DNA from: an uncultured Oscillospiraceae bacterium
Lineage (GTDB): Bacteria; Bacillota; Clostridia; Oscillospirales; Oscillospiraceae
Direction: 5' to 3'
NCBI GenBank assembly: GCA_947585425.1
Contig: CANPWZ010000020.1
Location: 1-33,085, forward strand
DNA length: 33,085 bases
In this document: piece by piece, positions 1 through 15,634 of the stretch
Layout: each line of letters begins with the position of its first letter
Numbering within the stretch: position 1 is the first letter of the stretch
Position numbers and translations under genes: made by a program
The notes under the pieces: model-generated
Seen by the model: the letters and a program-made list of their open reading frames with translations, nothing else
Told to the model about the DNA's origin: nothing
Databases searched by the model: none

Positions 1-4
1 ATAC

Positions 5-10
5 GGGAGG
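5..10 (+). promoter_or_regulatory. Ribosome binding site of efp
   Basis: GGGAGG lies 8 bases before the ATG at 19 and 14 bases before the alternative ATG at 25. The spacing favours 19 as the start, even though many EF-P proteins begin at the residues encoded from 25. The promoter lies outside the window. Confidence 0.7.
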
Positions 11-18
11 AATTACCC

Positions 19-588: not shown

Positions 589-609
589 CGCCCGGAAAGG
601 GACAAGACG

Positions 610-1032: not shown

Positions 1033-1048
1033 ACCACAGTTCACATGG

Positions 1049-1082
1049 AAGGGCCCGGCTGGGAGTCCAGCCGGGCCCTTTT
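1049..1082 (+). terminator. Intrinsic terminator after the efp operon
   Basis: A perfect 14-bp stem (1049-1062 with 1067-1080) closes a GAGT loop. The 3' arm ends in TT and continues TT into 1082, giving a short U tract. It lies 17 bases after the stop of the CD1247-like gene and before the next promoter. The 5' arm begins with AA, so it may also work weakly in the opposite direction. Confidence 0.9.
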
Positions 1083-1099
1083 GGCCGCATGGGAAAGGA

Positions 1100-1129
1100 T
1101 TGACTTTTCCCGGCCCGGTTTGGTATAAT
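1100..1129 (+). promoter_or_regulatory. Sigma-A promoter of the ABC exporter operon
   Basis: The -35 box TTGACT (1100-1105) and -10 box TATAAT (1124-1129) are separated by 18 bases. TG at 1121-1122 makes an extended -10. Transcription should begin near 1136, so the in-frame ATG at 1128 overlaps the -10 box and cannot be the translation start. Confidence 0.85.
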
Positions 1130-1175
1130 GCGATTCGTGCGAAAAAATACGCAAAAGGCCGGGGAGGGGACCCCT

Positions 1176-2933
1176 TTGAAGCTGATTTTCCGATATTTGG
1201 GACGTTATAAGTGGAGCGTATTGCTGGTGATGGCCGTCAAGCTGCTGGGCACTATGGCGGAGCTGGCTCTGCCCTACATCCTGGAGCACCTGCTGGACAA
1301 GGTGGTGCCCCTGGGGCGGCTGGGCCCGGTGATCTTCTGGGGGCTGCTGATGATCGCGGCGGCCATCGTCACACGGCAGCTCAATGTGACCGCCAACCGA
1401 AGGGCGGTGGAGAACGCCCACAATATCTCCTACGATGTGCGCCAGGCCCTGTTCCATAAGACGGTGAACCTGTCCGGCGGCCAGTTCGACGCCTTCGGCC
1501 TGCCCAGCCTCATCAGCCGCATGACCAGCGACAGCTACAACGTGCAGTCCTGCGCCCAGTCCCTCCAGACCCTGTGCGTCCGGGCCCCCATCCTGCTGGT
1601 GGGCAGCATCATCATGGCCCTGACCATGGACGTGCGGATGGCCCTCATCATGTGCGTGATGGCCCCCGTGCTCATCCTGGTGTGCGTGGGGGTGTCCCGG
1701 TTCGGCATCCCCCTTTACAACAAGGTCCAGCAGCGGCTGGACGACGTGGTGCGCATCATGCGGGAGGACATCACCGGCATTCGGGTGGTGAAGGCCCTGT
1801 CCAAGGAGGAGTACGAGAAGGGGCACTTCGGCGCCGCCAACGAGGCCATGGCCAGAAGCGACATCAAGGCCAGCGCCATCATGGCCATCCCGGGCCCCGC
1901 CATGCAGGTGTGCCTGAACATCGGCCTGACCCTGGTGGTGGTGCTGGGGGCATACCGGGTCAACGGCGGGGAGATGGACCCTGGCGTCATCCTGGCGTTT
2001 CTGACCTACTTCAACATGATCATGATGGGGGTCATGGGCCTGAACCGGGTGTTCATGATGCTGAGCAAGGCCAGCGCCTCCGCCGACCGCATCGACCTGG
2101 TGCTCAGCGCGGAGGAGGACCAGACCACCCTGCCCGCGGAGAACTGCCCCGCCCCCGGCGGGGAGGAGTTCATCCGCTTCGAGCATGTGGACTTCAGCTA
2201 CGGCAGGACGGATGACCCCACCCACGAGGGCTTTGCGGGGGCGGAGCGGGAGAAGTGCCTGTACGACATCAGCTTTGCCCTGAACAAAGGGGAGAGCCTG
2301 GGCATCATCGGCTCCACCGGCTGCGGCAAGTCCACCATCCTGAACCTGCTCATGCGGTTCTACGATGTGGACGCCGGCGGGGTGTTCGTGGACGGAAGGG
2401 ACGTCCGCGCCTATGAGAAGGACGACCTCCACCGCAAATTCGGCGTGGTGTTCCAGAACGACATGGTGTTCAACGACACCCTCCGCCGGAACATCGACTT
2501 CGGCCGGGGGCTGGAGGAACAGGACGTGCTGGACGCCGTGGCCGACGCCATGGCCGCCGAGTTCATCGGCGAGCTGGACGCGGGCCTGGACTATGTGGCG
2601 GACATCAAGGGGGCCAACCTGTCCGGCGGACAGAAGCAGCGGCTGCTCATCGCCCGGGCCCTGGCCGGCCGGCCGGAGATCCTGATCCTGGACGACTCCT
2701 CCTCCGCCCTGGACTACAAGACCGACGCGGCCCTCCGCAAGGCCATCTTCGCCCGGCACCGGGACGCCGCCGTCATCATGGTGGCCCAGCGGGTGAGCTC
2801 GGTGCAGTCCATGACCAACATCCTGGTGCTGGAGGAGGGCCGGTGCATCGGCTACGGCAGCCACGCCCACCTGCTGGAGACCTGCCCCGCCTACCGCGCC
2901 ATCTACGAGACCCAGATGGGCTCCATGACTTAA
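1176..2933 (+). CDS. Heterodimeric ABC exporter, subunit with degenerate ATPase site
   Basis: This is a fused permease-ATPase half transporter of the type IV exporter family, about 585 residues. The start is taken as TTG 1176, preceded by GGAGGGG with 6-base spacing; the upstream ATG at 1128 lies inside the promoter. The N-terminal half has six hydrophobic segments. The ATPase half has Walker A GSTGCGKS (about 379-386), Q-loop VVFQND, signature LSGGQ (about 482-486) and Walker B ILILDD. The catalytic Glu after the Walker B Asp is Asp507, and the switch His is Gln538 (VAQRVSS). These changes mark the degenerate partner in heterodimers such as BmrCD and TM287/288. The next gene supplies the other half, starting 17 bases downstream. 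The substrate (drug, lipid or peptide) cannot be read from the sequence. Confidence 0.92.
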   Translation: MKLIFRYLGRYKWSVLLVMAVKLLGTMAELALPYILEHLLDKVVPLGRLGPVIFWGLLMIAAAIVTRQLNVTANRRAVENAHNISYDVRQALFHKTVNLSGGQFDAFGLPSLISRMTSDSYNVQSCAQSLQTLCVRAPILLVGSIIMALTMDVRMALIMCVMAPVLILVCVGVSRFGIPLYNKVQQRLDDVVRIMREDITGIRVVKALSKEEYEKGHFGAANEAMARSDIKASAIMAIPGPAMQVCLNIGLTLVVVLGAYRVNGGEMDPGVILAFLTYFNMIMMGVMGLNRVFMMLSKASASADRIDLVLSAEEDQTTLPAENCPAPGGEEFIRFEHVDFSYGRTDDPTHEGFAGAEREKCLYDISFALNKGESLGIIGSTGCGKSTILNLLMRFYDVDAGGVFVDGRDVRAYEKDDLHRKFGVVFQNDMVFNDTLRRNIDFGRGLEEQDVLDAVADAMAAEFIGELDAGLDYVADIKGANLSGGQKQRLLIARALAGRPEILILDDSSSALDYKTDAALRKAIFARHRDAAVIMVAQRVSSVQSMTNILVLEEGRCIGYGSHAHLLETCPAYRAIYETQMGSMT

Positions 2934-2950
2934 GAGAGGAGGAGAGCGCC

Positions 2951-4726
2951 ATGCCCGGACCCAGCGACCGGGGCGGCCAGGGCCGTCCCAGAGACACCCG
3001 CGGCACCCTGCGGCGGATCTTGAACTATCTGGCGGAGTACAAGTGGATCGTGCTCCTCCTGCTGCTCTGCGCTTTTGCCAGCAACATCGGCAACCTGCTG
3101 GGGCCCTCCTTCGCCGGGGAGGCCATCGGCGTGGCGGAGGCCGGCGCGGGCAGGGTGGACTTTGACAGGGTGTTCTTCTACGCCAAATGTATGCTCGCGG
3201 CCTATCTGGGCAGCAATCTGCTGTCCTTCCTGGTGAGCCAGGGGATGATGCGGGTGAGCCGCCGGGTGGCCCAGCGGATGCGCAAAGACGTGTTCGACAA
3301 GCTGATGGCCCTGCCGGTGAAATACTTTGACCGCAACCAGGCCGGCGACATCATCAGCCGGGTGTCCTATGACATCGATGTGGTGTCCACCAGCCTCTCC
3401 ACCGACGTGGTGCAGATTTTGACCTCGGTGGTGACGGTGGCGGGCTCTTTCGTGATGATGTGCGTCACCTCCCTGCCCCTGGTGACGGTGATGCTCATCA
3501 CCATCCCGGCGTCCATCCTGTACACCCGGTACATGGGAAAGCGGACCCGGCCCCGGTACTCCAAGCGCAGCAGGGCCTACGGCGAGATGAACGGCTTTGT
3601 GGAGGAGATGTTCTCCGGCCAGAAGACCATCCTGGCCTACGCCCACGAGGACGGGGTGTGCGATGAGTTCAGCGCCATCAACCACAAGGCGGCCGACGCC
3701 TACCGGGACGCGGACTCCTTAGGGATGACCATGGGCCCCACCATCGGGCTCATCTCCAACCTGGGGCTGGCCCTCATCGGCCTTTTGGGGGCGGTGTTTT
3801 ACCTCTTCAACATCGTGAACCTGAAGCAGATCTCCAAGTTCGTGCTGTACTCCCGGAAGTTCTCCGGCCCTATCAACGAGATCGCCAACATCATCAACGA
3901 AATTTATTCCGCCCTGGCCGCCGCCGAGCGGGTGTTCCAGCTGCTGGACCAGCCGGAGGAGCTGGCCGACCTCTGTAGCGCGGAGGAGCTGGCCGACCCC
4001 GCCGGAGCGGTGGAGGCCGACCACGTGTCCTTCGGCTACCTCCCCGGCAAGACCATCCTCCACGATCTGAGCCTGGCGGCGGAGCCGGGGCAGACGGTGG
4101 CCATCGTGGGCCAGACGGGGGCGGGCAAGACCACCGTCATCAACCTGCTCATGCGGTTCTACGACGTGGACTCCGGCGAGATCCGGGTGGACGGCAGGGA
4201 GATACGCACCCTCACTCGGAAGAGCCTCCGCCGGGCCTACGCCATGGTGCTCCAGGACACCTGGGTGTTCCGGGGGACCATCTTCGAGAACATCGCCTAC
4301 GGCAAGGAAAACGCCACCATGGACGAGGTGGTACAGGCCGCCAAGGCCGCCCGCATCCACGGGTACATCATGCGCCTGCCCGAGGGCTACCGCACCGTGG
4401 TCAGCGAGGACGGCGGCAACATCAGCAAGGGGCAGAAGCAGCTGCTCACCATCGCCCGGGCCATGCTGTACGACACCCGGATGCTCATCCTGGACGAGGC
4501 CACCTCCAACGTGGACACCCACACCGAGCAGCAGGTGCAGAAGGCCATGCGGGAGCTGATGCGCGGCAAGACCAGCTTCGTCATCGCTCACCGGCTCTCC
4601 ACCATCCAGAACGCCGACAAGATATTGGTCATGGACCACGGCGACGTGGTGGAGCAGGGCACCCACGAGGAGCTGATGGCGGGGAAGGGTTACTATTACA
4701 GGCTGTACGCCTCCCAGTTTGAATAA
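2951..4726 (+). CDS. Heterodimeric ABC exporter, subunit with catalytic Walker B
   Basis: This is the second half transporter (591 residues) of the exporter pair. The start is ATG 2951, directly behind a purine-rich AGGAGGAG site; a longer in-frame reading from 2843 would overlap the preceding gene without need. Six membrane segments precede an ATPase domain with Walker A GQTGAGKT (about 387-394), Walker B MLILDE with catalytic Glu516, and switch His547 (IAHRLST). Its signature motif is ISKGQ (about 491-495) instead of LSGGQ. The two subunits are therefore complementary. Walker A/B of this protein with LSGGQ of the first gives one consensus ATP site; Walker A/B of the first with ISKGQ gives the degenerate site. 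This matches the one-active-site design of known heterodimeric exporters. Substrate unknown. Confidence 0.92.
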   Translation: MPGPSDRGGQGRPRDTRGTLRRILNYLAEYKWIVLLLLLCAFASNIGNLLGPSFAGEAIGVAEAGAGRVDFDRVFFYAKCMLAAYLGSNLLSFLVSQGMMRVSRRVAQRMRKDVFDKLMALPVKYFDRNQAGDIISRVSYDIDVVSTSLSTDVVQILTSVVTVAGSFVMMCVTSLPLVTVMLITIPASILYTRYMGKRTRPRYSKRSRAYGEMNGFVEEMFSGQKTILAYAHEDGVCDEFSAINHKAADAYRDADSLGMTMGPTIGLISNLGLALIGLLGAVFYLFNIVNLKQISKFVLYSRKFSGPINEIANIINEIYSALAAAERVFQLLDQPEELADLCSAEELADPAGAVEADHVSFGYLPGKTILHDLSLAAEPGQTVAIVGQTGAGKTTVINLLMRFYDVDSGEIRVDGREIRTLTRKSLRRAYAMVLQDTWVFRGTIFENIAYGKENATMDEVVQAAKAARIHGYIMRLPEGYRTVVSEDGGNISKGQKQLLTIARAMLYDTRMLILDEATSNVDTHTEQQVQKAMRELMRGKTSFVIAHRLSTIQNADKILVMDHGDVVEQGTHEELMAGKGYYYRLYASQFE

Positions 4727-4762
4727 GACACAGGGAGGGCCGCGCCCTTTCGGAGCTTTTGC

Positions 4763-4854: not shown

Positions 4855-6444
4855 ATGACCGAACGCTTGGACAGAGCCTGGTCCGGGGTATCCCGGCCTG
4901 TGCGGGCGGCCTTCTTCGGCGCGCTGATCGCGGGCCTGCTTGGCCACATCATAGGGATTACCAACTTCTTCCAGAACCATGACGGTATCCTGAACTTCCA
5001 TTTCGTGCCCAAGACCCACTACGGCCTGTGGTTCAGCCCGGTGGTGGGGGCCCTGGGCGGGGAGGTGACGGTGCCGGGCATCGCCATCGTGCTGGGGGTG
5101 GTCTGCATCGCGGTGAGCGCGGGGCTGATGGTGTCCTTCCTGGGCGTCCGTTCCCGGTGGATGGCCCTGGTGGCGGGGGTCATGATGGCGCTGTTCCCCA
5201 CGGTGGTCTGCACCAACGCCTACGGCTACTCCGGGATCCTGAGCTTCAGCTCCCTGCTGCTGGCCAGCCTGGCGGTGTGGTGCGTGGACCGGGGGTGGCC
5301 GGGGACCGTGGCGTCCCTGGTGCTGCTGACCCTGTCCCTGGGCACGGACCAGTCCCACATCAGCTGGGCCGCCGCCCTGCTCCTGCTGCGGATGATCCTG
5401 GAGGCCTTCCGCTGGGAGGGCAGTGCGTGGGACTACGTGCGCCGGGGGCTCAAGTACGTGGCGGTCCTGGCGGGGGCGGTAGTCTGCTATTACGGGATCC
5501 TGCAGGTGGTGCTGGTGGTCACGGACCTGGAGCTGACCGCCTACCGGGGCGTGGATCAGATGGCCCGGATCCGATGGGACGAGCTGCCGGCGCTGCTGGT
5601 GGAGACCTATAGGAAGGTGGCCCGGTTCTTCCTCCGGGACCAGTACGGCGAGGCCACGGCCTTCACGGCGTGGCTGTACCGGGCCATGCTGGTCTGCGCG
5701 GCCGGGGGCTACGCCCTGCTGGCGGCGCGCTGCCGGCTGTACCGGCGGTGGCCGATGATGCTCTTCTCTCTGATCCTCATGGGGCTCTTCCCCCTGGCGA
5801 TCCACCTGATCGCGGTGCTGGGCCAGGACGCGGACACCCACTGGGTGATGATCTACGCCTTCGTGCTGCTGCCGGTGATGTCCCTGGTCTTTGCCGATCG
5901 GTGCGAGCAGGAGTCGGCGGACCGGGGGGATAGCCGCAGGAGCCGGCTGGACACGGTGGCGTCGGTGCTGGCGGCGGCGGCCCTGCTGGTGGGCGTCGTC
6001 CAGAGCTGCGCGTGGTACGTGGTCACCGACGAGTGCTACACCGCCCTGCGCCTGACCAACTCCGCCATCTACGCCAGGAGCGTGCAGCTGTGCGCGGACC
6101 TGACGGATCGGGGGTACACCGCCGATATGCCCCTGGCCCTGCTGGGGGAGCAGGCGGCCCCCTATTTCGCCCCGGCGGAGGGCGTATACAGCAAGAGCCA
6201 GTATACCGGGATCGTCTCCCCCTCCTTCGCGGGGGACCCCCGGCATCTGTACCTGTATCTCCGGCAGATCGTGGGCTTCCCCCACACCCAGGCCGGCGAG
6301 GATCAGATCGATGCCCTGTGCCGGGATGAGGAGATCTTCGCCGACATGCCCGTCTACCCCCAGGAGGGGTCCGTGCGGGTGGTGGACGGCGTGATGGTGG
6401 TGAAGCTCTCCGGCGTGTCCAGCCCGGAGCAGGCGGCGCCATGA
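4855..6444 (+). CDS. GtrII-like polytopic membrane glycosyltransferase
   Basis: The 529-residue protein is an integral membrane protein with about ten hydrophobic segments and a soluble C-terminal tail from about residue 390. The N-terminal region resembles the Glucos_trans_II (GtrII) family: after the first membrane helix comes NHDG (about 42-45) and then a loop with GLWFSP, where acidic and aromatic residues of GT-C enzymes cluster. In serotype-conversion systems such enzymes move a sugar from undecaprenyl phosphate to a surface polysaccharide outside the membrane. Here it is first in a set with an ArnC/GtrB-like loader and putative flippase proteins, which fits that role. The start ATG has only AGAGG at 4841 as ribosome binding site. 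The acceptor (teichoic acid, secondary wall polymer or capsule) is not known. The family call is by pattern only, so moderate. Confidence 0.7.
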   Translation: MTERLDRAWSGVSRPVRAAFFGALIAGLLGHIIGITNFFQNHDGILNFHFVPKTHYGLWFSPVVGALGGEVTVPGIAIVLGVVCIAVSAGLMVSFLGVRSRWMALVAGVMMALFPTVVCTNAYGYSGILSFSSLLLASLAVWCVDRGWPGTVASLVLLTLSLGTDQSHISWAAALLLLRMILEAFRWEGSAWDYVRRGLKYVAVLAGAVVCYYGILQVVLVVTDLELTAYRGVDQMARIRWDELPALLVETYRKVARFFLRDQYGEATAFTAWLYRAMLVCAAGGYALLAARCRLYRRWPMMLFSLILMGLFPLAIHLIAVLGQDADTHWVMIYAFVLLPVMSLVFADRCEQESADRGDSRRSRLDTVASVLAAAALLVGVVQSCAWYVVTDECYTALRLTNSAIYARSVQLCADLTDRGYTADMPLALLGEQAAPYFAPAEGVYSKSQYTGIVSPSFAGDPRHLYLYLRQIVGFPHTQAGEDQIDALCRDEEIFADMPVYPQEGSVRVVDGVMVVKLSGVSSPEQAAP

Positions 6445-6508
6445 GGGCGGGGCCCCGCAGCCGGGAGGCCAGGCTGAACGACAATATCCTGAAGGTGGGG
6501 GACAGGAC

Positions 6509-7633
6509 ATGATCCCATTCAATCAACCTACGATCACGGAGCTGGAGGAGCGGTATCTGGTGGACGCTCTCCACCACAGCCGCCTTGCCGGCGACGGGGC
6601 CTATACCATGCGGGTCTACCGGCAGATGGAGGAGCTCTTCGGCATCCGCAATGTGCTGCTGACCACCTCAGGCACCACGGCCCTGGAGATGGCGGCGCTG
6701 CTCATCGACCTGGCGCCGGGGGACGAGGTGATTGTGCCCTCCTTCACCTTCTCATCCACCGTGAACGCCTTTCTGCTGCGGGGGGCCAAACCGGTGTTCT
6801 GCGACATCCGGCCCGACACCCTGAACATGGACGAGTCCCTCATCGAGGGGCTCATCAGCCCCAGGACCCGGGCCATCTACTGCGTGGACTACGCCGGCGT
6901 GCCCTGCGAGATGGACGAGATCGGACGGATCGCCCGGGACCACGGCCTCTTCGTCATCGAGGACGCGGCCCAGGCGATGGGCTCCACCTATAAGGGCCGG
7001 TACGCCGGGACCCTGTCGGAGTTCGGCTGCTTCTCCTTCCATGAGACCAAGAACTACGTCATGGGCGAGGGCGGCGCCATCGTCCTGGACCAGGAGAAGT
7101 ACATGGAGCGGGCGGAGATCATCCGGGAGAAGGGCACCAACCGCCGCCAGATGCTGGACGGCCTCACCGACAAGTACACCTGGCACGACATCGGCTCCTC
7201 CTTCCTGCCCTCGGACCTGCTGGCCGCCCTCCTCTGCGCCCAGCTGGAGCGGTACGACGAGATCATGGCCAAACGCCGGGCGGTGTGGGACGCCTACCAC
7301 CAGCGGCTGCGGCCCCTGGAGGAGGCCGGGAAGCTGCGGCGGGCCATGGTGCCGGAGCATGTGGTCCACAACGGCCATATGTACAACATCGTGCTCCCCT
7401 CGGAGGCGGTCCGCAGCCGCCTGGTGGCGGAGCTGAAGGCCCGGGGCACCCTGGCTTTCATCTGCTATGTGCCCCTGCACTCCGCTCCTATGGGCCGGCG
7501 GCTGGGCTGGCGGGCGGAGGACTGCCCTATCACCGAGGACTACGGCGGCAGGGCCCTGCGCCTGCCCCTCTACGCGGACATGACTCTGGAACAGGTGGAA
7601 CAGGTGGTGGACCAGCTGACGGAGATCCTGTGA
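6509..7633 (+). CDS. rffA: dTDP-4-amino-4,6-dideoxygalactose transaminase (RffA/WecE type)
   Basis: A 374-residue PLP enzyme of the DegT/DnrJ/EryC1/StrS family. It matches E. coli RffA (WecE) closely along its length: MIPFN start, LAPGDEVIVPSFTF, FCDIRPDTLNMDESLI, the PLP-binding EDAAQ (151-155), and FSFHETKNY with catalytic Lys181, followed by REKGTNR and KYTWHDIGSS. RffA converts dTDP-4-keto-6-deoxyglucose and glutamate to dTDP-Fuc4N, the precursor of Fuc4NAc in enterobacterial common antigen. The strong RffA-like motifs support the same substrate, though related enzymes make dTDP-Qui4N. No RmlA/RmlB genes for the keto-sugar are in the window, so it must come from elsewhere in the genome. 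The gap to the next gene is 34 bases, and that gene is the likely acyltransferase for the new amino group. Confidence 0.9.
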   Translation: MIPFNQPTITELEERYLVDALHHSRLAGDGAYTMRVYRQMEELFGIRNVLLTTSGTTALEMAALLIDLAPGDEVIVPSFTFSSTVNAFLLRGAKPVFCDIRPDTLNMDESLIEGLISPRTRAIYCVDYAGVPCEMDEIGRIARDHGLFVIEDAAQAMGSTYKGRYAGTLSEFGCFSFHETKNYVMGEGGAIVLDQEKYMERAEIIREKGTNRRQMLDGLTDKYTWHDIGSSFLPSDLLAALLCAQLERYDEIMAKRRAVWDAYHQRLRPLEEAGKLRRAMVPEHVVHNGHMYNIVLPSEAVRSRLVAELKARGTLAFICYVPLHSAPMGRRLGWRAEDCPITEDYGGRALRLPLYADMTLEQVEQVVDQLTEIL

Positions 7634-7667
7634 GGGCGGGGACGACTTCCTTAGGAGGGGACAGGGC

Positions 7668-8327
7668 ATGAGAGATCGTGCGATCATATTCGGGGACCAG
7701 GTCTTCGCAGAGACGATCCGGCTGGACCTGGACATGGCGGGCATCCAGATCTGCGCCTTCTGCGTGGACGAGGCCTACCGGCATCGGGACAGCGTGGGGG
7801 GCCTCCCCCTGGTCTCTTTCGAGACGGTCCAGGACAGCTATCCGCCGGACCAGTTCGACGCCTACGTGGGCGTGGGGTACTCCCGCATGGGGGAGATCCG
7901 CATGGACGCCATGCGCCGTCTGGCGGAGAAGGGCTACGATCTGCCCAATTTCATCGCCCCCACGGCCACCGTGCTGCCGGGACCGGCCATGGGCCGGGGG
8001 AACCTGATCCTTCCCCGGGCCTTCATCGGCAGGGAGGTGTCCATCGGCTCGGGCAACGTGATCCTCCCCATGGCCCACATAGCCCACAACAACGTGCTGG
8101 GGGACGGGAACTTTATCTCCACCAGCGCCATGATCTGCGGCTTCGCCCAGGTCTCCAACAACTGCTTCATCGGCGCCAACTCCTGTGTCCGGGACAAGAT
8201 CCGGCTGGCGCCCTATACCCTGGTGGGCGGACACGCCTACATCGACCGGGACACCCGGCCCCACGGCGCCTACGCCGCGCCCCGGGCGGTGGAACTGGCC
8301 AAGGACAGCCTGGACGTGGCTCTGTAG
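7668..8327 (+). CDS. PglD/NeuD-like left-handed beta-helix N-acyltransferase
   Basis: The 219-residue protein has the two-part build of the PglD/NeuD sugar acyltransferases. A small Rossmann-like N-terminal domain (RDRAIIFGDQVFAETI, to about 85) is followed by hexapeptide repeats (about 90-200), for example NLILPRAFIGREVSIGSGNVI and NNCFIGANSCV. A His in the IAHNNVLGDGNF segment aligns by eye with the catalytic-base His region of PglD. These enzymes acylate the 4-amino group of nucleotide-linked amino sugars, usually from acetyl-CoA. Placed behind an RffA-type transaminase, it probably takes the role that the unrelated GNAT enzyme WecD (RffC) has in E. coli. The start ATG follows TTAGGAGGGG. 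Acyl donor and product are inferred. Confidence 0.8.
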   Translation: MRDRAIIFGDQVFAETIRLDLDMAGIQICAFCVDEAYRHRDSVGGLPLVSFETVQDSYPPDQFDAYVGVGYSRMGEIRMDAMRRLAEKGYDLPNFIAPTATVLPGPAMGRGNLILPRAFIGREVSIGSGNVILPMAHIAHNNVLGDGNFISTSAMICGFAQVSNNCFIGANSCVRDKIRLAPYTLVGGHAYIDRDTRPHGAYAAPRAVELAKDSLDVAL

Positions 8328-8361
8328 GCGGCTCCGGGCCAAGACAGGAGGGGGGATCCCT

Positions 8362-9321
8362 TTGGACGGCAAGAAGAGACTGAGCTTCGTCATCCCCTGC
8401 TACCGCAGCGAGCAAACGGTGGCGGCGGTGATCGACGAGATCCGGCAGGTGGCCGGCGGCGCGGACTGGGAGATCGTGGCGGTGAACGACGGCTCCCCGG
8501 ACGGGGTGATGGCGGTGCTGGAGGACCTGGCGGCCCGGGACCATCGAGTCAAGGTGGTGGACCTGGCCAAGAACATGGGCAAGCACGCCGCACTGATGGC
8601 GGGCTACGCCCGGACCACCGGCGACATCGTGGTGGGCTTGGACGACGACGGGCAATGTCCCCTGGACCGGCTGTGGGATCTGCTGGCCCCCCTGGACCAG
8701 GGGTACGACATCGCCATCGCGCGCTACGGGAGGAAGAGGCAGAGCCGCTTCAAGAACTTCGGCAGCCGCGTCAACGACTGGATGGCCCGGTTCCTGCTGG
8801 GCAAGCCCAAGGATCTGAAGACCTCCAACTTCTACGCCATGCGGCGGTTCGTCTGCGACGAGATCGTCCGCTGCCGGAACCCGTTTCCCTATGTGGAGGG
8901 CCTCTTCCTGCGCACCACCAGCGCCATCGCCAACGTGGATATGGACGAGCGGGAGCGGATCGCGGGGCGCAGCGGCTACGGCCTGCGGAAGTCCCTGGCC
9001 CTCTGGCTCAACGGCTTCACCGCCTTCTCCGTCAAGCCCCTGCGCCTGGCTTCGGTGCTGGGCTTCCTCGTCGCCATCCTGGGCTTCCTCATCGCCTTCA
9101 TCACCGTGGTGCGGAAGCTGATGTACCCCGCCATTGCCGCGGGCTACAGCTCCCTGCTGGCGGCGGTCCTGGTGATCGGCGGCATGATCATGGTGCTGCT
9201 GGGCGTGATCGGCGAGTACGTGGGGCGGATCTACATCTGCCTCAACGACTCCCCCCAGTATGTGGTCCGGCGGACCATCAACATCGACGGCGGCCGGAAG
9301 GGACAGGGGGACGCGGAATGA
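8362..9321 (+). CDS. Polyprenyl-phosphate glycosyltransferase, GT2, ArnC/GtrB-like
   Basis: The start is taken as TTG 8362, behind AGGAGGGGGG at 8347, giving about 319 residues; an earlier in-frame ATG at 8185 would lie inside the preceding gene. The GT-A domain begins RLSFVIPCYRSEQTV, with nucleotide-binding Asp43 (NDGSPDG) and the DDD metal motif 94-96 (GLDDDG). The ArnC/GtrB-like pattern continues with NMGKHAALMAGY, then two C-terminal membrane helices (about 225-290) and the closing GLL-type GEYVGRIY motif. Members load a sugar from a nucleotide carrier onto undecaprenyl phosphate at the inner membrane face. ArnC itself uses a modified 4-amino sugar, which fits the neighbouring transaminase and acyltransferase. 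The stop overlaps the start of the ATP-grasp gene (ATGA). Confidence 0.88.
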   Translation: MDGKKRLSFVIPCYRSEQTVAAVIDEIRQVAGGADWEIVAVNDGSPDGVMAVLEDLAARDHRVKVVDLAKNMGKHAALMAGYARTTGDIVVGLDDDGQCPLDRLWDLLAPLDQGYDIAIARYGRKRQSRFKNFGSRVNDWMARFLLGKPKDLKTSNFYAMRRFVCDEIVRCRNPFPYVEGLFLRTTSAIANVDMDERERIAGRSGYGLRKSLALWLNGFTAFSVKPLRLASVLGFLVAILGFLIAFITVVRKLMYPAIAAGYSSLLAAVLVIGGMIMVLLGVIGEYVGRIYICLNDSPQYVVRRTINIDGGRKGQGDAE

Positions 9322-10511
9322 AGCGGATCATGCTCCTGGGGGGCAACTACTTCCAGACCACGGCGGTCCGGGCCGCCCGGGATATGGGCTACTACGTCAT
9401 CACCGTGGACTACCTGCCGGACAACCCCGGCCATCGGTACGCCCACGAGTACCACAACATCAGCACTCTGGACCGGGAACGGGTGCTGGACCTGGCCCGG
9501 CGGCTGGAGATCGACGGCATCCTCTCCTACGCCTCGGACGTGTCGGCGCCCACGGCGGCCTATGTGGCCGGCGCCCTGGGCCTGCCCACCAACCCGCCGG
9601 AGGCGGTGGAGGTCCTGACGGACAAGGGCGCCTTCCGCCGCTTCCTCCGGGCCAACGGATTTAACGCCCCCCGGGGGGACACCTTCACCCGGTACGAGGA
9701 CGCCCTGGCCTTCTGCCGGGACGCCGCATGGCCGGTGATGGTGAAGCCCACCGACTCCGCCGGCAGCAAGGGCGTCCACCAGGTGGCGGGGCCGGAGGGG
9801 ATGGAAAACGCCTGGCGCTCGGCCATGTCCTTCTCCCGGAACGGCCGGATCTGCGTGGAGGAGTTCATCGACAAGGACGGCTATGAGATCGACGCGGACA
9901 GCTTCCTGGTGGACGGGAGGCTGGCCTATTTCGGGGTGATGGACCAGCACAACGACCTGGCCTGCAACCCCTTTGTGCCGGTGGGGCTGTCGGCCCCGTC
10001 CTTCCTGTCCCCGGAGCGGCGGGCGCTGGCCCGGCGGGAGCTCCAGCGGCTGCTGGGCCTGCTGGGCATGGAGATGGGCGCGCTGAACGTGGAGTTCGTA
10101 TTCGACCGGGCGGGCCGGCTCTACTTTCTGGAGGTGGGCCCCCGCAGCGGCGGGAACCTGATCTCCGACACCATCCTGCTGGGATCCGGCGTGGACTTGG
10201 CCTCCGCCGCCGTGCGGGCCGCGGTGGGCGACCCCTGCGGGGACCTGACAGAGCGCCCCTTCCACATCTGCGTGTCCTCCTATGTGATCCACGCCCGGCG
10301 GGACGGCGTCTACCGGGATCTGCGGATCGCGGAGGAGCTGCAAGGCGACGTGCTGCGGCTGGACCTCTTCGTCCGGCCCGGGGACCCGGTGCGCTACTAC
10401 GACGACGCCAGCGCCGCCATCGGCGCGGCGATCCTGCGCTTTCCGGACCAGGAGACCATGGCCCGGCGCATGGACCGCATGGCGGAGCTGATCTGCCCCA
10501 TCCTGGCATAG
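9318..10511 (+). CDS. ATP-grasp ligase in glycosylation cassette
   Basis: A 397-residue ATP-grasp enzyme. The start ATG 9318 overlaps the previous stop codon, so the two genes are translationally coupled. The N-terminal pre-ATP-grasp domain (LLGGNYFQTTAVRAARDMGY) resembles those of PurK and carbamoyl-phosphate synthase-like ligases. The ATP-grasp fold shows VMVKPTDSAGSKGV (Lys for phosphate contact), EEFIDKDGYEIDADSF and the metal-binding end NVEFVFDRAGRLYFLEVGPRSGG. Such enzymes join a carboxylate, activated as acyl phosphate, to an amine or thiol. Between a polyprenyl-phosphate loader and flippase-like genes, an attractive inference is that it attaches an amino acid or other acid to the 4-amino sugar or to the lipid carrier. 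No substrate can be read from sequence; amino-acid ligase and sugar N-acyl ligase are both open. Confidence 0.8.
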   Translation: MKRIMLLGGNYFQTTAVRAARDMGYYVITVDYLPDNPGHRYAHEYHNISTLDRERVLDLARRLEIDGILSYASDVSAPTAAYVAGALGLPTNPPEAVEVLTDKGAFRRFLRANGFNAPRGDTFTRYEDALAFCRDAAWPVMVKPTDSAGSKGVHQVAGPEGMENAWRSAMSFSRNGRICVEEFIDKDGYEIDADSFLVDGRLAYFGVMDQHNDLACNPFVPVGLSAPSFLSPERRALARRELQRLLGLLGMEMGALNVEFVFDRAGRLYFLEVGPRSGGNLISDTILLGSGVDLASAAVRAAVGDPCGDLTERPFHICVSSYVIHARRDGVYRDLRIAEELQGDVLRLDLFVRPGDPVRYYDDASAAIGAAILRFPDQETMARRMDRMAELICPILA

Positions 10512-10532
10512 CCCGGAGGAAGGAGGCCCTTT

Positions 10533-10895
10533 ATGGACCGGGACACTGCGCGGGCCCTCCTGGCCCTTCATCTGCTGCTGGCGGTGTACTCCCTGGCCGG
10601 AGTGTGCGGCAAGCTGGCGGCGGGCCGGCCCTTCCTGAGCCTGCCCTTCTGCCTGTGGTACGGCGGGGCCCTGGTCCTGCTGGGGCTGTACGCCCTGGGC
10701 TGGCAGCAGGTCATCAAGCGCCTGCCTCTGACCGCGGCCTACGCCAGCAAGGCCGTCACCGTGATCTGGGGCATCCTGTGGGGCGCCCTCCTCTTCCATG
10801 AGGAGATCACGGCGGGAAAGCTGGCCGGCGCGATGCTGATCGCGGCGGGGGTGCTGCTCTTCTCCCGGGGAGAGGGGGCCGGGGACCATGGATAG
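10533..10895 (+). CDS. SMR/EamA-type four-helix membrane protein, ArnE/ArnF-like (first)
   Basis: The 120-residue protein has four hydrophobic helices and the small-multidrug-resistance/EamA half-repeat layout: a helix-1 region LALHLLLAVYSLAGVCGK, then LPLTAAYASKAVTVIWGILWGALLFHEEIT and a last helix GAMLIAAGVLLF. The HEEIT motif before the final helix is typical of EamA and Arn flippase subunits. ArnE and ArnF together are thought to flip undecaprenyl-phosphate-aminoarabinose. This gene overlaps the next SMR-type gene by 8 bases, so they probably form a heteromeric flippase. The start ATG has GGAGGAAGGAGG upstream. Drug export is an alternative, but the operon context favours lipid-linked sugar. 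Confidence 0.75.
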   Translation: MDRDTARALLALHLLLAVYSLAGVCGKLAAGRPFLSLPFCLWYGGALVLLGLYALGWQQVIKRLPLTAAYASKAVTVIWGILWGALLFHEEITAGKLAGAMLIAAGVLLFSRGEGAGDHG

Positions 10896-11241
10896 CCGGA
10901 CCGCGGCCTACGCCCTGCTCCTGCTGCTGGGGGCCTTCCTGGGGGCGGTGAGCCAGGTGATGCTGAAAAAGGCGGCCCTCCGCCGCCACGCCTCCCGGCT
11001 CCGAGAGTATCTGAACCCCCTGGTGGTGTGCGCCTACGCCCTGTTTTTCGGCACCACCCTGCTGTCGGTGCTGGCTTACCGGGCCGTGCCACTGTCCATG
11101 GGGCCGGTGCTGGAGTCCACCAGCTACCTCTATGTCGCCATCTTCGGCGTCACGATCTTCCACGAGCGGCTGGACCGGCGGAAGCTGGCGGGACTGGCCC
11201 TGATCCTGGGGGGCATCCTGGTCTACGCCCTGCTGGGATAG
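10888..11241 (+). CDS. SMR/EamA-type four-helix membrane protein, ArnE/ArnF-like (second)
   Basis: The 117-residue protein is the partner of the preceding gene, which it overlaps by 8 bases in another frame. Four helices are visible: AYALLLLLGAFLGAVSQVMLKK, LVVCAYALFFGTTLLSVLAY, YLYVAIFGVTIFHERL and LAGLALILGGILVYALLG. The charged VMLKKAAL at the end of helix 1 and the HERLD motif before helix 4 are seen in ArnE/ArnF-like proteins and EmrE relatives. It ends the glycosylation cassette. A flippase role for the undecaprenyl-phosphate sugar made by the upstream genes is inferred; no GtrA-type flippase is present in the window. Confidence 0.75.
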   Translation: MDSRTAAYALLLLLGAFLGAVSQVMLKKAALRRHASRLREYLNPLVVCAYALFFGTTLLSVLAYRAVPLSMGPVLESTSYLYVAIFGVTIFHERLDRRKLAGLALILGGILVYALLG

Positions 11242-11336
11242 AAAAAGGGCGACCCCACGAAAGGCGTCACCCGATACCATAAGTTATGATCAGATCGGAA
11301 ACAGGCGCCTGAACGCGCCTTGGGAGGAGGATCGGC

Positions 11337-12218
11337 ATGCGATACGCCATCGAAAACGAGTTTTTGCGCCTGACGGCCGATACCCATGGAGCGGAAGCCG
11401 TCAGCGTGATCGACAAGCGCAGCGGGGCCGAGATGCTTTGGCAGGGGGATCAAGCGGTATGGGGCCGCCATGCGCCCATCCTGTTCCCCTATACCGGCAA
11501 ACTGCCCGGCGGGAGGATGCTGGCCAAAGGCGGGGAATACCGCGGCGGACAGCACGGCTTTGCCCGGGATATGGAGCATAAGATGGCGCGGCACACCGAG
11601 GATACGCTGGTGTTCGAACTGGCGGCGGACCAGCGGACCCGGGCCCTCTGGCCCTACGACTTCGTGCTGCGCAGCACCTTTACGCTGGCTGAGCGCACCG
11701 TACACCACAGCCTTACGGTGGAGAACCCCGGCGAGGATGAGCTGCGGTTCGGCATCGGGTACCACCCGGCCTTCGCGATCCCCTTTGATGACCGGCATAC
11801 CACCGCCGACTATGAGTTCCGCTTCGAGCGGGAGGAGAGCCCGCTGTGCGTCAGCGCCCTGCCGGACGGCCTGCTGAGCGGGCACAGCTACTACCTGGGC
11901 CGCAACATCCGCAGCATCCCGCTCACCGACGAGCTGTTCCAAAACGACAGCCACTGCATGGTCAATCTGCGCAGCCGCACGCTGGCCATCGTGGAAAAGG
12001 ACAGCGGCAGGGCCGTCAGCTGCGACATCGAGGGCTATCCCTATGTGCTGATCTGGAGCGCCAAGGCGCAGCCGGTGCGCTTTGTGTGCATCGAGCCGTG
12101 GCACAGCCTCACCGGCGAGGAGGGCGGCCCGGAGGAATGGGAGGAGCGCCCCAGCGCCGCGGCCCTGAAAAAAGGGGAGAGCTGGACGACCACGCTCTCC
12201 ACCTCCTTTATCCGCTAA
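11337..12218 (+). CDS. LacX-like aldose 1-epimerase family protein
   Basis: The 293-residue protein has the galactose-mutarotase beta-sandwich pattern of the LacX/YphB branch. Motifs are APILFPYTGKLP (about 47-58), GGQHGFARDMEH (about 71-82) with the first catalytic-type His, GIGYHPAF with the second His, and a Glu in the late FVCIEPWHSL segment. The family interconverts alpha and beta anomers of aldoses or sugar phosphates; the LacX branch substrate is not firmly known. The start ATG 11337 follows GGAGGAGG. Third-position choice is looser than in the upstream cassette, and there is a 95-base gap, so it looks like a separate gene. Its TAA stop overlaps the stop of the convergent permease gene. 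Confidence 0.85.
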   Translation: MRYAIENEFLRLTADTHGAEAVSVIDKRSGAEMLWQGDQAVWGRHAPILFPYTGKLPGGRMLAKGGEYRGGQHGFARDMEHKMARHTEDTLVFELAADQRTRALWPYDFVLRSTFTLAERTVHHSLTVENPGEDELRFGIGYHPAFAIPFDDRHTTADYEFRFEREESPLCVSALPDGLLSGHSYYLGRNIRSIPLTDELFQNDSHCMVNLRSRTLAIVEKDSGRAVSCDIEGYPYVLIWSAKAQPVRFVCIEPWHSLTGEEGGPEEWEERPSAAALKKGESWTTTLSTSFIR

Positions 12219-13009
12219 GCGCCGGCATAGCGGAACACATTGTAGACGCTGATCAGGATGATGACCGCCATCAGCGCGATGAACAGCTTTTCCACCGCGG
12301 CGTTGTCCAGCTTTTTGTTGATGGCGCGGCCCGCGATCCCGCCTCCGATCCCGCCGCACACCATAAGGATCAGCGCCGGCCAGTCGAACTCCGGCACGGT
12401 GTGAGTGGCCAGGGTGGTGATCAGACTGGCGATCTGGCTGAACAGGATGATGTAGAGGCTGTTCTGCGCGGCGGTCTTCGTATCCATCCCGAAGAAGAAA
12501 TACAGCACCACCAGATTGATCGGCCCGCCGCCGATGCCCAGGAAGCTGGACAGGATCCCGAGGATCAGCCCGATCAGCAGGCAGGCGGCGGGGTGGGAGA
12601 CGCTGTGGGTCCTGATCCTGCTTTTGTAGACGGTATAGACAAGGGTAGCCGCGGTGACCAGCGCCAGGCAGGCCGCCTGGACCGCGCCCACGGTGTTCGG
12701 GGCGGAGAACATGGCCTTGACGGCGCTGAAGAGCTGCTTCCCCGCGACGCCGCCCGCCGCCGCGCCGACAGCCATCGGCGTGCCGGTCTTCAGCTCCACC
12801 TTGCTCTCCCCGGAGAGCAGGTTCCGAGAGACGGAATAGCAGCTCATGGAGAGGACGGTACAGCCGGATAAAAAGCTGATCGTGGACACGCTGGCAAGAG
12901 CGCTCAGATCCAGCACAGGCTTGATGATGACGCCCCCGCCGATCCCGCAGATGGCGCCGGCGACAGAGGCGAGAAAGCTCACCAGAAAAAACAGCAGCGA
13001 TCGAAGCAT
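12215..13009 (-). CDS. TSUP family permease (TauE/SafE)
   Basis: The 264-residue membrane protein has about eight helices and the two-fold repeat of TSUP (sulfite exporter TauE/SafE) proteins. The half-motifs are GAICGIGGGVIIKPVLDL near the N-terminus and GILSSFLGIGGGPINLVVLYF at about residue 160. TSUP members export sulfite, sulfoacetate or related organosulfur anions; the substrate here is unknown. The start ATG is at 13009 with AGGAGGG upstream; the frame stays open further upstream but runs antisense through the MATE gene and is not coding. The stop overlaps that of the mutarotase by 3 bases, leaving no room for a terminator between them. Confidence 0.87.
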   Translation of the reverse strand: MLRSLLFFLVSFLASVAGAICGIGGGVIIKPVLDLSALASVSTISFLSGCTVLSMSCYSVSRNLLSGESKVELKTGTPMAVGAAAGGVAGKQLFSAVKAMFSAPNTVGAVQAACLALVTAATLVYTVYKSRIRTHSVSHPAACLLIGLILGILSSFLGIGGGPINLVVLYFFFGMDTKTAAQNSLYIILFSQIASLITTLATHTVPEFDWPALILMVCGGIGGGIAGRAINKKLDNAAVEKLFIALMAVIILISVYNVFRYAGA

Positions 13010-13077
13010 AGTTCCCTCCTGACAGATATACCGATTTGAGGTCAAAAATGATGATACGGGGACGCCGGTCCCGCCGC

Positions 13078-14463
13078 TCAGGGCCGCTCTTTGGCCTCCC
13101 GCTCTGCCGACAGCTTCCGCAGGATGGCCCGGAAGCGGAAGAAGAACAGGATCGCCGTGAAGGTCACCGCGATGACGTCCGCTACCGGCTCCGCCAGATA
13201 GACCGCCGTGGCCTGATCCGCCATCAGGTGGGGCATGAGGAAGATCAGCGGCAGCAGCAGGACGAATTTCCGCACGATGGCCACCGTGGCGGAGCAGACG
13301 GTCTGCCCCAGGGACATGAAGGTCATCTGGCAGGCCACCTGGACGCCGAACAGCCCCAGCGCCCCGCAGTAGATGCGCAGGGCCCTGGCGGAGTAGTCCA
13401 GCAGGGGCCCCGCCGGGGTGAAGATGCCGGCGAAGACCTGGGGGAACAGCATGATCATGGCCCACAGGGTGACGGAGTAGGCGGCGCTCACCGCCAGCAG
13501 CAGGCGGAACACCTGCCGGACCCGGGCGGCGTTCCGGGCGCCGTAGTTGTAGCTGCTGATGGGCTGGGCCCCCTGGGACAATCCCTGAAGGGGCAGCATG
13601 GCGAACTGCATCACGCTGGTGAGGATGGTCATGGAGCCCACGGCCACGTCGCCCCCGTAGCGGTACAGGGAGGAGTTGAAGGCCAGGGAGATGACGCTCT
13701 CGCTGGACTGCATGATAAAGGGGGCCAGCCCCAGCGCCACGCAGGGCAGCACCAGCTTGGGGCGGATGGGGAGCGTGCCCCGCTTCAGGCGGAGGATGGT
13801 GCGTCTGCCCGCCAGAAAGGCCACCACCCAGGCGCAGGAGGCCCCCTGGGAGAGGACGGTGGCCAGGGCGGCCCCCCGCACTCCCATACCCAGCAGATAG
13901 ATAAAGACGGGATCCAGGATGATGTTGCACACCGCGCCCAGCAGCACGGTGAGCATCCCTACTTTTGTGAAGCCCTGGGCGGTGATAAAGGAGTTCATCC
14001 CCAGGGTGAGCTGGACGAACACCGTGCCCAGGGCATAGATCTGCAAGTAGGACGCGGCATATTCGATGGTGTTCTCACTGGCGCCGAAGGCCAGCAGGAA
14101 GGGCCGGTGCCACAGCAGCAGGGCGGCTGTCAGCAGGAGGGAGACGATCACCTGGAGGGTGAAACAGCTCCCCATGGTGTCCTCCGCCGCCTTGGGATCG
14201 CCCTCCCCCATGAAGATGGAGGCCCGGGGCGCGCCGCCGCCGCTGATGAGCACCGCGAAGGCGGCGACGATCATGATGACGGGCATACACACCCCTACGC
14301 CGGTGAGAGCCAGATCCCCCACATCGGGCATATGGCCGATGTAGATGCGGTCCACCACGTTGTACAGCATATTGATGAGCTGCGCGGCGATGGTGGGGAT
14401 GGCCAGCCGGAACAGCAGACCGCCCACCGGCGCGGTGCCCAGATAACGGTTGTCCTGATCCAT
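13078..14463 (-). CDS. MATE family multidrug/Na+ antiporter
   Basis: The 461-residue protein has 12 hydrophobic helices and MATE hallmarks: LAIPTIAAQLINMLYNVVDRIYIGHM in helix 1, GDPKAAEDTMG in the first cytoplasmic loop, and the mirrored LQGLSQGAQPISSYNYGA in the second half, typical of the DinF/NorM-like MATE subfamilies of Firmicutes. It exports cationic drugs or metabolites in exchange for Na+ or H+. AGAGG precedes the ATG at 14463. No good promoter is seen in the 87 bases upstream, which carry a strong hairpin (14492-14519), so expression may depend on read-through or an unrecognised promoter. A weak 5-bp hairpin at 13059-13072 follows the stop. Confidence 0.92.
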   Translation of the reverse strand: MDQDNRYLGTAPVGGLLFRLAIPTIAAQLINMLYNVVDRIYIGHMPDVGDLALTGVGVCMPVIMIVAAFAVLISGGGAPRASIFMGEGDPKAAEDTMGSCFTLQVIVSLLLTAALLLWHRPFLLAFGASENTIEYAASYLQIYALGTVFVQLTLGMNSFITAQGFTKVGMLTVLLGAVCNIILDPVFIYLLGMGVRGAALATVLSQGASCAWVVAFLAGRRTILRLKRGTLPIRPKLVLPCVALGLAPFIMQSSESVISLAFNSSLYRYGGDVAVGSMTILTSVMQFAMLPLQGLSQGAQPISSYNYGARNAARVRQVFRLLLAVSAAYSVTLWAMIMLFPQVFAGIFTPAGPLLDYSARALRIYCGALGLFGVQVACQMTFMSLGQTVCSATVAIVRKFVLLLPLIFLMPHLMADQATAVYLAEPVADVIAVTFTAILFFFRFRAILRKLSAEREAKERP

Positions 14464-14491
14464 GGATACGCCTCTTTTCGGATACGAAGAG

Positions 14492-14519
14492 CGGGGCGGC
14501 CGCGTAAGCGGCCGCCCCG
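14492..14519 (-). terminator. Hairpin after the flavoprotein gene
   Basis: A perfect 12-bp GC-only stem (14492-14503 with 14508-14519) closes a 4-base loop, between the flavoprotein stop and the MATE start on the minus strand. On the minus strand the 3' flank reads CTCTTCGT, so the U tract is poor. It may be a weak terminator or a transcript-end stabiliser that lets some transcription through into the MATE gene. Confidence 0.6.
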
Positions 14520-14551
14520 ATGATGTCTGTAACGGTTCGTTCCCGAGGGGA

Positions 14552-15544
14552 TCAGCCCTGCTTGGAGGGGGGAGTGGTGGGCTCGCAGACGGCGGTGTAG
14601 TGGGCCTTGCGGGCCTGGAACTCGGGATCCTTAAAGAGGTTCATCAGGCGGCCCTCGTTCTCGAAGATGTCCTGGCCGTGGGCCAGCTTGCCGCTGAGGA
14701 CGTCGTGGGCGTGCTCGATGTGGCCGTTGGGGACGATGGAGGGGTCGAACACGAACTTGGTGGCGCCGTCCACCACCTCCAGATGGCCCTCCATGCCGCA
14801 GTACTCGCACACGGCGTGGGTGGTGCCGGGGAAGATGTAGAAGGCGTTGCCCTGGCAGTGGGGGCAGGCGCCCTCCACGCCCTTCCACAGGGACAGGTTC
14901 TCGGAGCCGGCTACCTGCACGTCGTTGTCGATGATGTACTGGGCGGCCTCCACCAGGTTGCGGCCGATCTCCTTCATCCGCGCCACCTTGTCGTCCTGCA
15001 TGATGACGTCCTTGGACCAGGAGAAGTACTCGTTGTTGACGATCTTCCAGCCCTGGCTCAGGGCGAACATGGCGTGGTCGGTCTCGCAGCGGACGGCCCA
15101 GTCGGAGCCGCCGATGGCCACGAAGGACATGGCCTTCTGCTTGAAGTAGCGGGGATTCAGGCCGGGCTTGCCCTGCTCCTTCAGCTTGCCGTCCAGCATG
15201 AGCAGCATGCCGGTGTCATGGCCGGGGCCCATGCGGTCGGTGATGGTGTGGAACAGGCCGGAGGCGCCGGACTCGAAAATGGGATCGACCATGATGACGC
15301 CGTCGGCCTCCACGATCTTCTCGTAGAAGGCGGAGAAATCGTCCTTGCGGGTGCAGACCATGCCCTTGCCCATGACCAGGCCCCGGGAGCAGGCCACGCA
15401 GCCGGAGCAGAACTGGATGTTCCAGTCCAGCAGATGGATGAACTCGATCTCGGCCCCCATCTCCTTCGCGGCCTCCAGGGCCACGCGGCACATGGTGTCG
15501 TTGTTGCCGTTTTTGGTACCTAAGGAAACGCCCAGGATCTTCAT
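14552..15544 (-). CDS. Iron-sulfur flavoprotein-like NAD(P)H-dependent reductase with zinc ribbon
   Basis: The 330-residue protein begins with a flavodoxin-like NADPH-dependent FMN reductase domain (MKILGVSLGTKNGNND, FMN phosphate loop at 7-16). A cysteine cluster Cys46, Cys49, Cys52 and Cys64 (CSGCVAC, then C before KDDF) resembles the [4Fe-4S] site of Isf-type flavoproteins. The C-terminal part adds a zinc ribbon with Cys227/Cys230 (CPHC) and Cys246/Cys249 (CEYC) and a further 80 residues. It probably passes electrons from NAD(P)H or ferredoxin to an unknown acceptor. A near-consensus promoter, a GAGGAGG site and very biased codons suggest high expression. The zinc-ribbon extension is unusual for the family in my experience. 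Substrate unknown. Confidence 0.75.
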   Translation of the reverse strand: MKILGVSLGTKNGNNDTMCRVALEAAKEMGAEIEFIHLLDWNIQFCSGCVACSRGLVMGKGMVCTRKDDFSAFYEKIVEADGVIMVDPIFESGASGLFHTITDRMGPGHDTGMLLMLDGKLKEQGKPGLNPRYFKQKAMSFVAIGGSDWAVRCETDHAMFALSQGWKIVNNEYFSWSKDVIMQDDKVARMKEIGRNLVEAAQYIIDNDVQVAGSENLSLWKGVEGACPHCQGNAFYIFPGTTHAVCEYCGMEGHLEVVDGATKFVFDPSIVPNGHIEHAHDVLSGKLAHGQDIFENEGRLMNLFKDPEFQARKAHYTAVCEPTTPPSKQG

Positions 15545-15634
15545 CTTTTTTCCTCCTCAAATGATTTTTTCATGTAATTCGGTGAAAGAAACGCACGGAA
15601 GAGCGGAGCGCGTTGTGCATTTCCACTTATTTGT

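Follow-up and report, generated by a model that had tools for sequence, protein, structure and literature searches.

In the synthesis of enterobacterial common antigen (ECA), the transaminase WecE draws on RmlA and RmlB for the sugar Fuc4NAc, and WecF moves the sugar from dTDP to a repeat linked to lipid diphosphate. The Gram-negative Arn pathway (ArnB, ArnC, ArnE/ArnF, and ArnT) combines a 4-amino sugar made by a DegT-family enzyme with a GT2 glycosyltransferase (ArnC), an SMR-pair flippase (PMC9574504), and transfer by an integral membrane glycosyltransferase (GT-C), and Gram-positive multi-component (three-component) systems such as CsbB-GtcA-YfhO and GtsABC join a GT-A-fold loader of undecaprenyl phosphate to a small flippase and a GT-C protein (PMC8035078). 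Here, we analyze a cassette of seven genes at 4855-11241 on the plus strand of a 33,085-nucleotide stretch (the window) of contig CANPWZ010000020.1, from an uncultured Oscillospiraceae bacterium with relatives among gut species. The cassette is real, coherent, and recurrent in its core, with WecE and ATP-grasp proteins that are divergent members of their groups. We judge it reasonably likely that the genes specify multi-component transmembrane glycosylation of the Gram-positive kind, acting on a Fuc4N-type sugar. In this reading an ArnE/F-like SMR heterodimer would be the flippase, and the ATP-grasp enzyme would attach an N-substituent that is perhaps an amino acid.

The SMR pair, a putative flippase, occupies the place that GtrA/GtcA-type or Wzx-type putative flippases hold in the Gram-positive systems tabulated in PMC8035078, and the predicted sugar is a 4-amino-4,6-dideoxy sugar, whereas those systems, when their sugar has been established, handle Gal, Glc, or GlcNAc (PMC8035078); the cassette also adds a transaminase, an acyltransferase, and a ligase of its own. 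With the Arn pathway it shares the DegT-family transaminase, the ArnC-like GT2, the SMR pair, and the GT-C step, but its transaminase is of the WecE rather than the ArnB type, no formyltransferase is present among the seven genes, its GT-C belongs to the GtrII family, and lipid A is not expected as the acceptor. The transaminase family and the rmlA/rmlB supply are those of ECA synthesis, from which the cassette differs by its monosaccharide loader and flippase. Genes for dTDP-Fuc4N have likewise been predicted for a Clostridium butyricum capsule (PMC12342839), and a flagellar island is predicted to include RfbB/RffA (PMC13317340); the excerpts of these two reports do not name an ArnC-like loader, an SMR pair, or an ATP-grasp enzyme. 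A sequence-only reading of the cassette knew of no described system with this exact set, in agreement with our searches of open-license PMC papers, in which we recognized no published description of the combination. The overall logic of multi-component transmembrane glycosylation is already known; what stands out here is the tie of an SMR pair to a WecE transaminase, seen both inside loci and from genome to genome, together with the coupling to a ligase.

Association of the SMR pair with WecE across genomes

The last two cassette genes encode four-helix SMR/EamA-type proteins that are proposed flippase subunits, SMR1 (10533-10895, 120 aa) and SMR2 (10888-11241, 117 aa), and their frames overlap by 8 bases. 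The EamA profile gave 34.5 bits for SMR2, over the cut-off, and 24.7 bits for SMR1, under the cut-off of 28.2. A profile search of genome contigs with SMR2 returned 270 relatives, the best 80 of which were taken as loci. An SMR1-like gene was found in 79 of these, with the sole miss at a contig end; ArnC-like genes were present in 59, WecE-like genes in 57 (46 at ≥42% identity), and ATP-grasp genes in 37, and a close WecE, an ArnC-like gene, and an ATP-grasp gene occurred together in 29. All 46 close WecE genes lay on the SMR strand at a median distance of 2.5 kb, as did 37 of 38 ATP-grasp matches, at a median of 0.7 kb from SMR2. The record titles of the SMR2 loci include Lachnospiraceae, Ruminococcaceae, Oscillospiraceae, Faecalibacterium, Gemmiger, Solobacterium, Olsenella, Atopobium, Gordonibacter, and others, with Gemmiger formicilis (L246 and L257) and Fournierella massiliensis (L238) among the named species; both are cultured commensals, and the G. 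formicilis locus shows a GNAT match but none for ATP-grasp.

The association extends beyond the flanks. Thirty of the 34 SMR2 genomes that lack a close WecE in the flank carry WecE elsewhere (21 of 23 plus 9 of 11; one is a partial gene, in G693, and another, in G688, lies on the same contig just past the flank), compared with a base rate of 34 among 391 sampled class genomes (E ≤ 1e-90, own genome counted); base rates for WecE cover the window's family and class, not Coriobacteriia. Of all the evidence that the SMR pair would serve the WecE product, this in-trans association is the strongest. SMR proteins are known or proposed flippases of lipid-linked sugars, as for ArnE/F and mycobacterial Rv3789 (literature including PMC9574504, PMC11127046, and PMC7389260). 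Lipid SMRs are singletons in the genome set of one SMR review (PMC9574504), in contrast to the pairs at cassette-type loci. A Pfam scan of 18 window proteins showed no GtrA; the remaining genome was not searched for it.

It is very improbable that the SMR pair is instead an efflux pump that neighbors these genes by chance. Such a function would fit the SMR1/SMR2 pairs of L189, L205, and L218, which lie away from recognizable glycosylation genes in the flank, in genomes that have WecE elsewhere; it would also fit the scores of SMR1 and SMR2, which fall below the ArnE and ArnF cut-offs, and the Glu found in 4 of 14 SMR1 rows at the position read as central in the first transmembrane helix. It is countered by the in-trans occurrence of WecE, by the near-constant pairing of SMR1 with SMR2, and by the absence of Glu from the first 30 residues of both window proteins; lipid-type SMRs often lack the central Glu and carry Asn instead (PMC9574504). 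A chance neighborhood of the cassette genes as a whole was rejected, the same families recurring together within loci and across genomes.

WecE was also used to find loci. Its relatives (E ≤ 1e-60) are present in 17 of 300 family genomes, own genome counted, and in none of the five other same-genus genomes listed; 10 of the 13 SMR2 genomes fall among these 17 (p 4e-12, kinship ignored). The 16 other family WecE loci contain ArnC-like (14), ATP-grasp (10), SMR (8), YfhO (8), and GtrA (2) genes, so that YfhO of the three-component systems adjoins WecE in half of them, and rmlA or rmlB (≥45%) lies near 6 of the 16. The corresponding numbers for the 33 other class WecE loci are 27 for ArnC-like, 13 for ATP-grasp, 9 for SMR, 10 for rmlA or rmlB, 9 for GNAT, 2 for GtrII, and 1 for YfhO. 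Contig ends truncate the flanks of several loci, so these counts are lower bounds. Each family was represented by one or a few tblastn queries (threshold 1e-6), a procedure that fails to detect divergent members and GT-Cs most of all. In G178, WecE is separated by 10-13 kb from the loader, ligase, and SMR pair, which are visible only in a longer stretch (L093) and fall outside the count of 16. Genes were called with a home-made codon score or, at low G+C, as longest frames (the latter in L045 and L046).

One order found in several loci, among them L031, L179, L186, and L217, is a large membrane protein, WecE, ArnC-like GT2, ATP-grasp, SMR1, and SMR2, with interspersed extra genes and sometimes adjoining rmlA and rmlB. 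The closest match to the window is L180, from Faecalibacterium sp. UBA1771, which has six of the seven window families and is missing GtrII. Two contigs of G240, C17 and C79 (L044 and L096), appear to hold one cassette split inside the ArnC-like gene, with WecE on C17 and the ATP-grasp gene, a PaaK-like ligase gene, the SMR pair, rmlA, and rmlB on C79. In L098 (3985-12864), a GtrII-like gene, a hexapeptide acyltransferase, two DegT genes, an epimerase-like gene, a GFO/IDH/MocA oxidoreductase, an SMR pair, and an ArnC-like gene lie together, a cassette-like architecture that probably serves a different amino sugar. The interval between the ArnC-like and ATP-grasp genes of L031 (12214-15582) encodes an epimerase, a cupin, a DAHP-synthase-family protein, a HAD hydrolase, and a protein with no Pfam match that we read as a cytidylyltransferase, perhaps a side pathway for an acidic sugar.

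Sugar supply, loading, and transfer

The transaminase (6509-7633, 374 aa) had been taken for RffA, an assignment borne out by both NCBIfam WecE models (508.7 bits for NF008687, cut-off 375, and 457.3 for TIGR02379, cut-off 434.85). PF01041 gave 313.9 bits, and the best sequence matches in the PDB were 6blg and 4piw. Lys-181, within a HETKN motif, is invariant in 15 of 15 aligned sequences and is presumably the residue that binds pyridoxal phosphate. The ArnB model NF008658 yielded 185.3 bits, far from its cut-off of 631, so the enzyme is not of the ArnB type. In the organism's own genome (2.0 Mb in 58 contigs, 98% complete), the next-best DegT match scored 42.5 bits compared with 313.5 for the cassette WecE; four other DegT matches exceed the low Pfam cut-off and cover only part of the profile.

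Genes for rmlA and rmlB, which the sequence-only reading suggested looking for elsewhere, are both over cut-off and adjoin each other on contig C11; contig C9 has another rmlA-like gene, which barely passes. No rmlD in the genome exceeds its cut-off, the best score being 44.2 bits (cut-off 224.05) for rmlB itself, and on this ground we rejected dTDP-rhamnose as the evident destination of what RmlA and RmlB make; rmlC was not searched for. Given rmlA and rmlB and no rmlD over cut-off, the cassette WecE is the evident outlet for dTDP-4-keto-6-deoxyglucose, which most plausibly feeds it. Family membership predicts Fuc4N as the product, and all 10 relatives whose WecE was scored pass both WecE cut-offs. 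The further claim that the cassette brings its own sugar synthesis holds for the last step or steps and not for the earlier ones, because rmlA and rmlB are on another contig.

The ArnC/GtrB-like GT2 protein (8362-9321, 319 aa, from a TTG start that we chose at 8362) matched Glycos_transf_2 with 101.9 bits (E 4.9e-29), and its best PDB matches were ArnC 9hwj (E 1.4e-39) and sll0501. A simple scan placed hydrophobic segments in the final third of the protein, consistent with a membrane-linked GT-A-fold loader of polyprenyl phosphate. The nearest NCBIfam models are ArnC and PgfS, both equivalog cut-offs being missed by far. The first gene of the cassette (4855-6444, 529 aa) encodes a GtrII-family GT-C protein that scored 123.8 bits with PF14264 (cut-off 30; E 1.1e-35) and showed 8 or 11 hydrophobic segments in the same type of scan, depending on whether the stricter or the looser threshold was used; we propose that it is the extracytoplasmic transferase. 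A fold model of it built without an alignment was too poor for use (pLDDT 42.7). In related loci, the large membrane partner is a YfhO, PMT_2, DUF6056, DUF2142, or GtrII protein or, in several cases, a protein with no Pfam match; YfhO and PMT_2 proteins perform the GT-C step in described systems (PMC8035078).

From these families we infer the substrates, the order of N-modification, the flipping step, and the acceptor of the following pathway. RmlA and RmlB would make dTDP-4-keto-6-deoxyglucose, and the cassette WecE would aminate C4 to give a dTDP-4-amino-4,6-dideoxyhexose (Fuc4N by family). The ATP-grasp enzyme would link the new amine to a carboxylate, for which an amino acid is the most likely candidate, and acetylation by the hexapeptide acyltransferase would fall on the sugar amine or on the amine of the added aminoacyl group. 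Loading onto undecaprenyl phosphate would be the task of the ArnC/GtrB-like GT2; the SMR1/SMR2 heterodimer would then flip the lipid-linked sugar in the manner of ArnE/F, and on the outer side GtrII would pass it to an acceptor such as a surface glycan. The loader, flippase, and GT-C logic of the sequence-only reading is supported.

The seven genes and their families stood up to inspection of reading frames, Pfam, and NCBIfam, all seven frames being confirmed on the plus strand with spacings, 5′ to 3′, of 64, 34, 34, −4, 21, and −8 bases. A simple sigma-70 scan detected no promoter-like site, so a single transcript stays a proposal. At least 60 families of direct repeats occur across the cassette, and none of the 20 listed frames it.

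The N-substituent and points against the proposed pathway

Two cassette enzymes could act on the sugar amine. The NeuD/PglD/VioB-like hexapeptide N-acyltransferase (7668-8327, 219 aa) gave 44 bits with Hexapep and 116.7 with TIGR03570, under the cut-off of 160.8, and its top three PDB matches are annotated as acetyltransferases, one of them a UDP-N-acetylbacillosamine N-acetyltransferase. The ATP-grasp carboxylate-amine ligase (9318-10511, 397 aa) scored 48.2 bits with CPSase_L_D2 and a borderline 29.5 with LAL_C2 (cut-off 29.4). We propose that it couples the 4-amino sugar to a carboxylate such as an amino acid; 4dim, 3vot, and PurT rank close together as its nearest folds, and because PurT is among them the enzyme may instead have a formyl-transfer role. 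A search for related loci with this protein gave 29 stretches, none of them confirmed. The related loci vary (ACYLTRANSFERASE), with an ATP-grasp gene and no acyltransferase match in some, an acyltransferase and no ATP-grasp match in L035 and L045, and both in the window, L036, L046, and L180, which suggests that the two enzymes vary the N-substituent between loci. An N-acetyl-aminoacyl group would be the simplest outcome where both are present. Some related cassettes also contain amino-acid-type enzymes, namely ornithine-cyclodeaminase/SbnB-like, lysA-like decarboxylase, octopine-dehydrogenase family, PaaK-like ligase, and second DegT proteins.

A simpler sugar is rather unlikely, though it deserves weight: the same lipid-linked system could carry plain Fuc4NAc, with the hexapeptide enzyme substituting for WecD and the ATP-grasp enzyme acting on something else or on the acceptor. 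The resemblance of the acyltransferase to sugar N-acetyltransferases agrees with this, and L035 and L045 indicate that acylation alone can suffice. The position of the ATP-grasp matches, nearly always on the SMR strand and close to SMR2, argues against this alternative, as does a WecE-like (DegT) gene in 4 of the 6 clusters (L099-L104) that hold close relatives of the window ATP-grasp protein.

Several observations weigh against an N-aminoacylated Fuc4N pathway as drawn here. An acyltransferase plus a ligase for one amine demands an extra assumption. Identity between the window ATP-grasp protein and 13 aligned relatives is 19-27% in 12 cases and 38% in the other, and 6 of the protein's 7 closest matches (38-43%) belong to clusters without an SMR pair; the seventh (L033) lies inside a WecE/SMR locus. 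The window WecE is an outlier in its clade, at 457-509 bits on the two models compared with 580-655 for the 10 relatives, so its substrate might differ; this low score and the ATP-grasp relative in L033 weigh in opposite directions. At C4, one WecE model specifies the galacto and the other the gluco configuration, so the product may be either Fuc4N or Qui4N. Subfamily scores are low for the loader (ArnC equivalog NF007986, 159.2 bits, cut-off 529) and for SMR1 and SMR2 (31.5 and 33.6 bits with ArnE NF011625, cut-off 92; 21.3 and 17.5 bits with ArnF NF002816, cut-off 99). Seven of the 17 WecE family genomes have no SMR2 at E 1e-12, two of which (G134 and G194) have a weaker SMR pair, and GtrA is found in L035 and, alongside an SMR pair, in L043. 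Finally, the exact seven-gene set was seen once, in the window, and in none of 129 other loci, which are partly non-independent because L182 seems to be the same contig as G178:C5 and L225 the same as G290:C30; beyond the six families of L180, the maximum was five. What is conserved is a core with swapped parts rather than the full set envisaged by the sequence-only reading.

Surroundings, possible acceptors, and meaning

The cassette is flanked upstream by an ABC exporter gene that ends at 4726 and downstream by an aldose 1-epimerase gene that starts at 11337; apart from a MatE-family gene, the flanking genes scanned comprise two ABC exporter genes, the aldose epimerase, TauE, and an FMN reductase. 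The 93% DNA identity to the sibling genome G285 stops at window base 4746, before the cassette, and 11300-15600 shows only weak matches to G285, indicating that the cassette is accessory. Window positions 1-1081 and 1074-4746 match G285 in opposite orientations, which marks a likely inversion breakpoint at 1074-1081, next to the ABC exporter genes. The MatE-family transporter gene (13078-14463) is on the minus strand, opposite to the cassette and 1.8 kb past it, with no sign found of cassette membership. Further on, 19505-20821 (plus strand) encodes a protein that combines an SLH domain with a GH25 lysozyme domain, read as a wall-anchored hydrolase. This protein suggests a secondary wall polymer, which could be the acceptor of the cassette.

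Wzx flippases belong to the MatE superfamily, and the nearby transporter gene could thus be set beside the WecE loci that sit within larger polysaccharide clusters (L033, L045, and L046) and the Clostridium capsule and flagellar-island predictions as pointing to a precursor that is built into a repeating polysaccharide or used to glycosylate proteins, rather than to single-sugar decoration of a wall polymer. We regard such a precursor role as improbable: no polymerase or initiating transferase was present among the flanking genes scanned, which are part of the window genes, and a loader, a flippase, and a GT-C protein make up a single-sugar arrangement (PMC8035078).

One survey, as excerpted, reported Fuc4NAc in Gammaproteobacteria only (PMC7725333). 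The scores of the window WecE and of all 10 relatives over the WecE cut-offs suggest that Fuc4N-type sugars are commoner than that. It is possible, and we suggest tentatively, that N-aminoacylated Fuc4N delivered from undecaprenyl phosphate by a dedicated heterodimeric SMR flippase is an undescribed surface modification that is widespread in gut Firmicutes and Coriobacteriia. Such a system would amount to an Arn pathway for Gram-positives, its decoration, and perhaps the charge of that decoration, being varied through exchangeable amino-acid enzymes and GT-Cs. The product may represent a new surface epitope of commensals.

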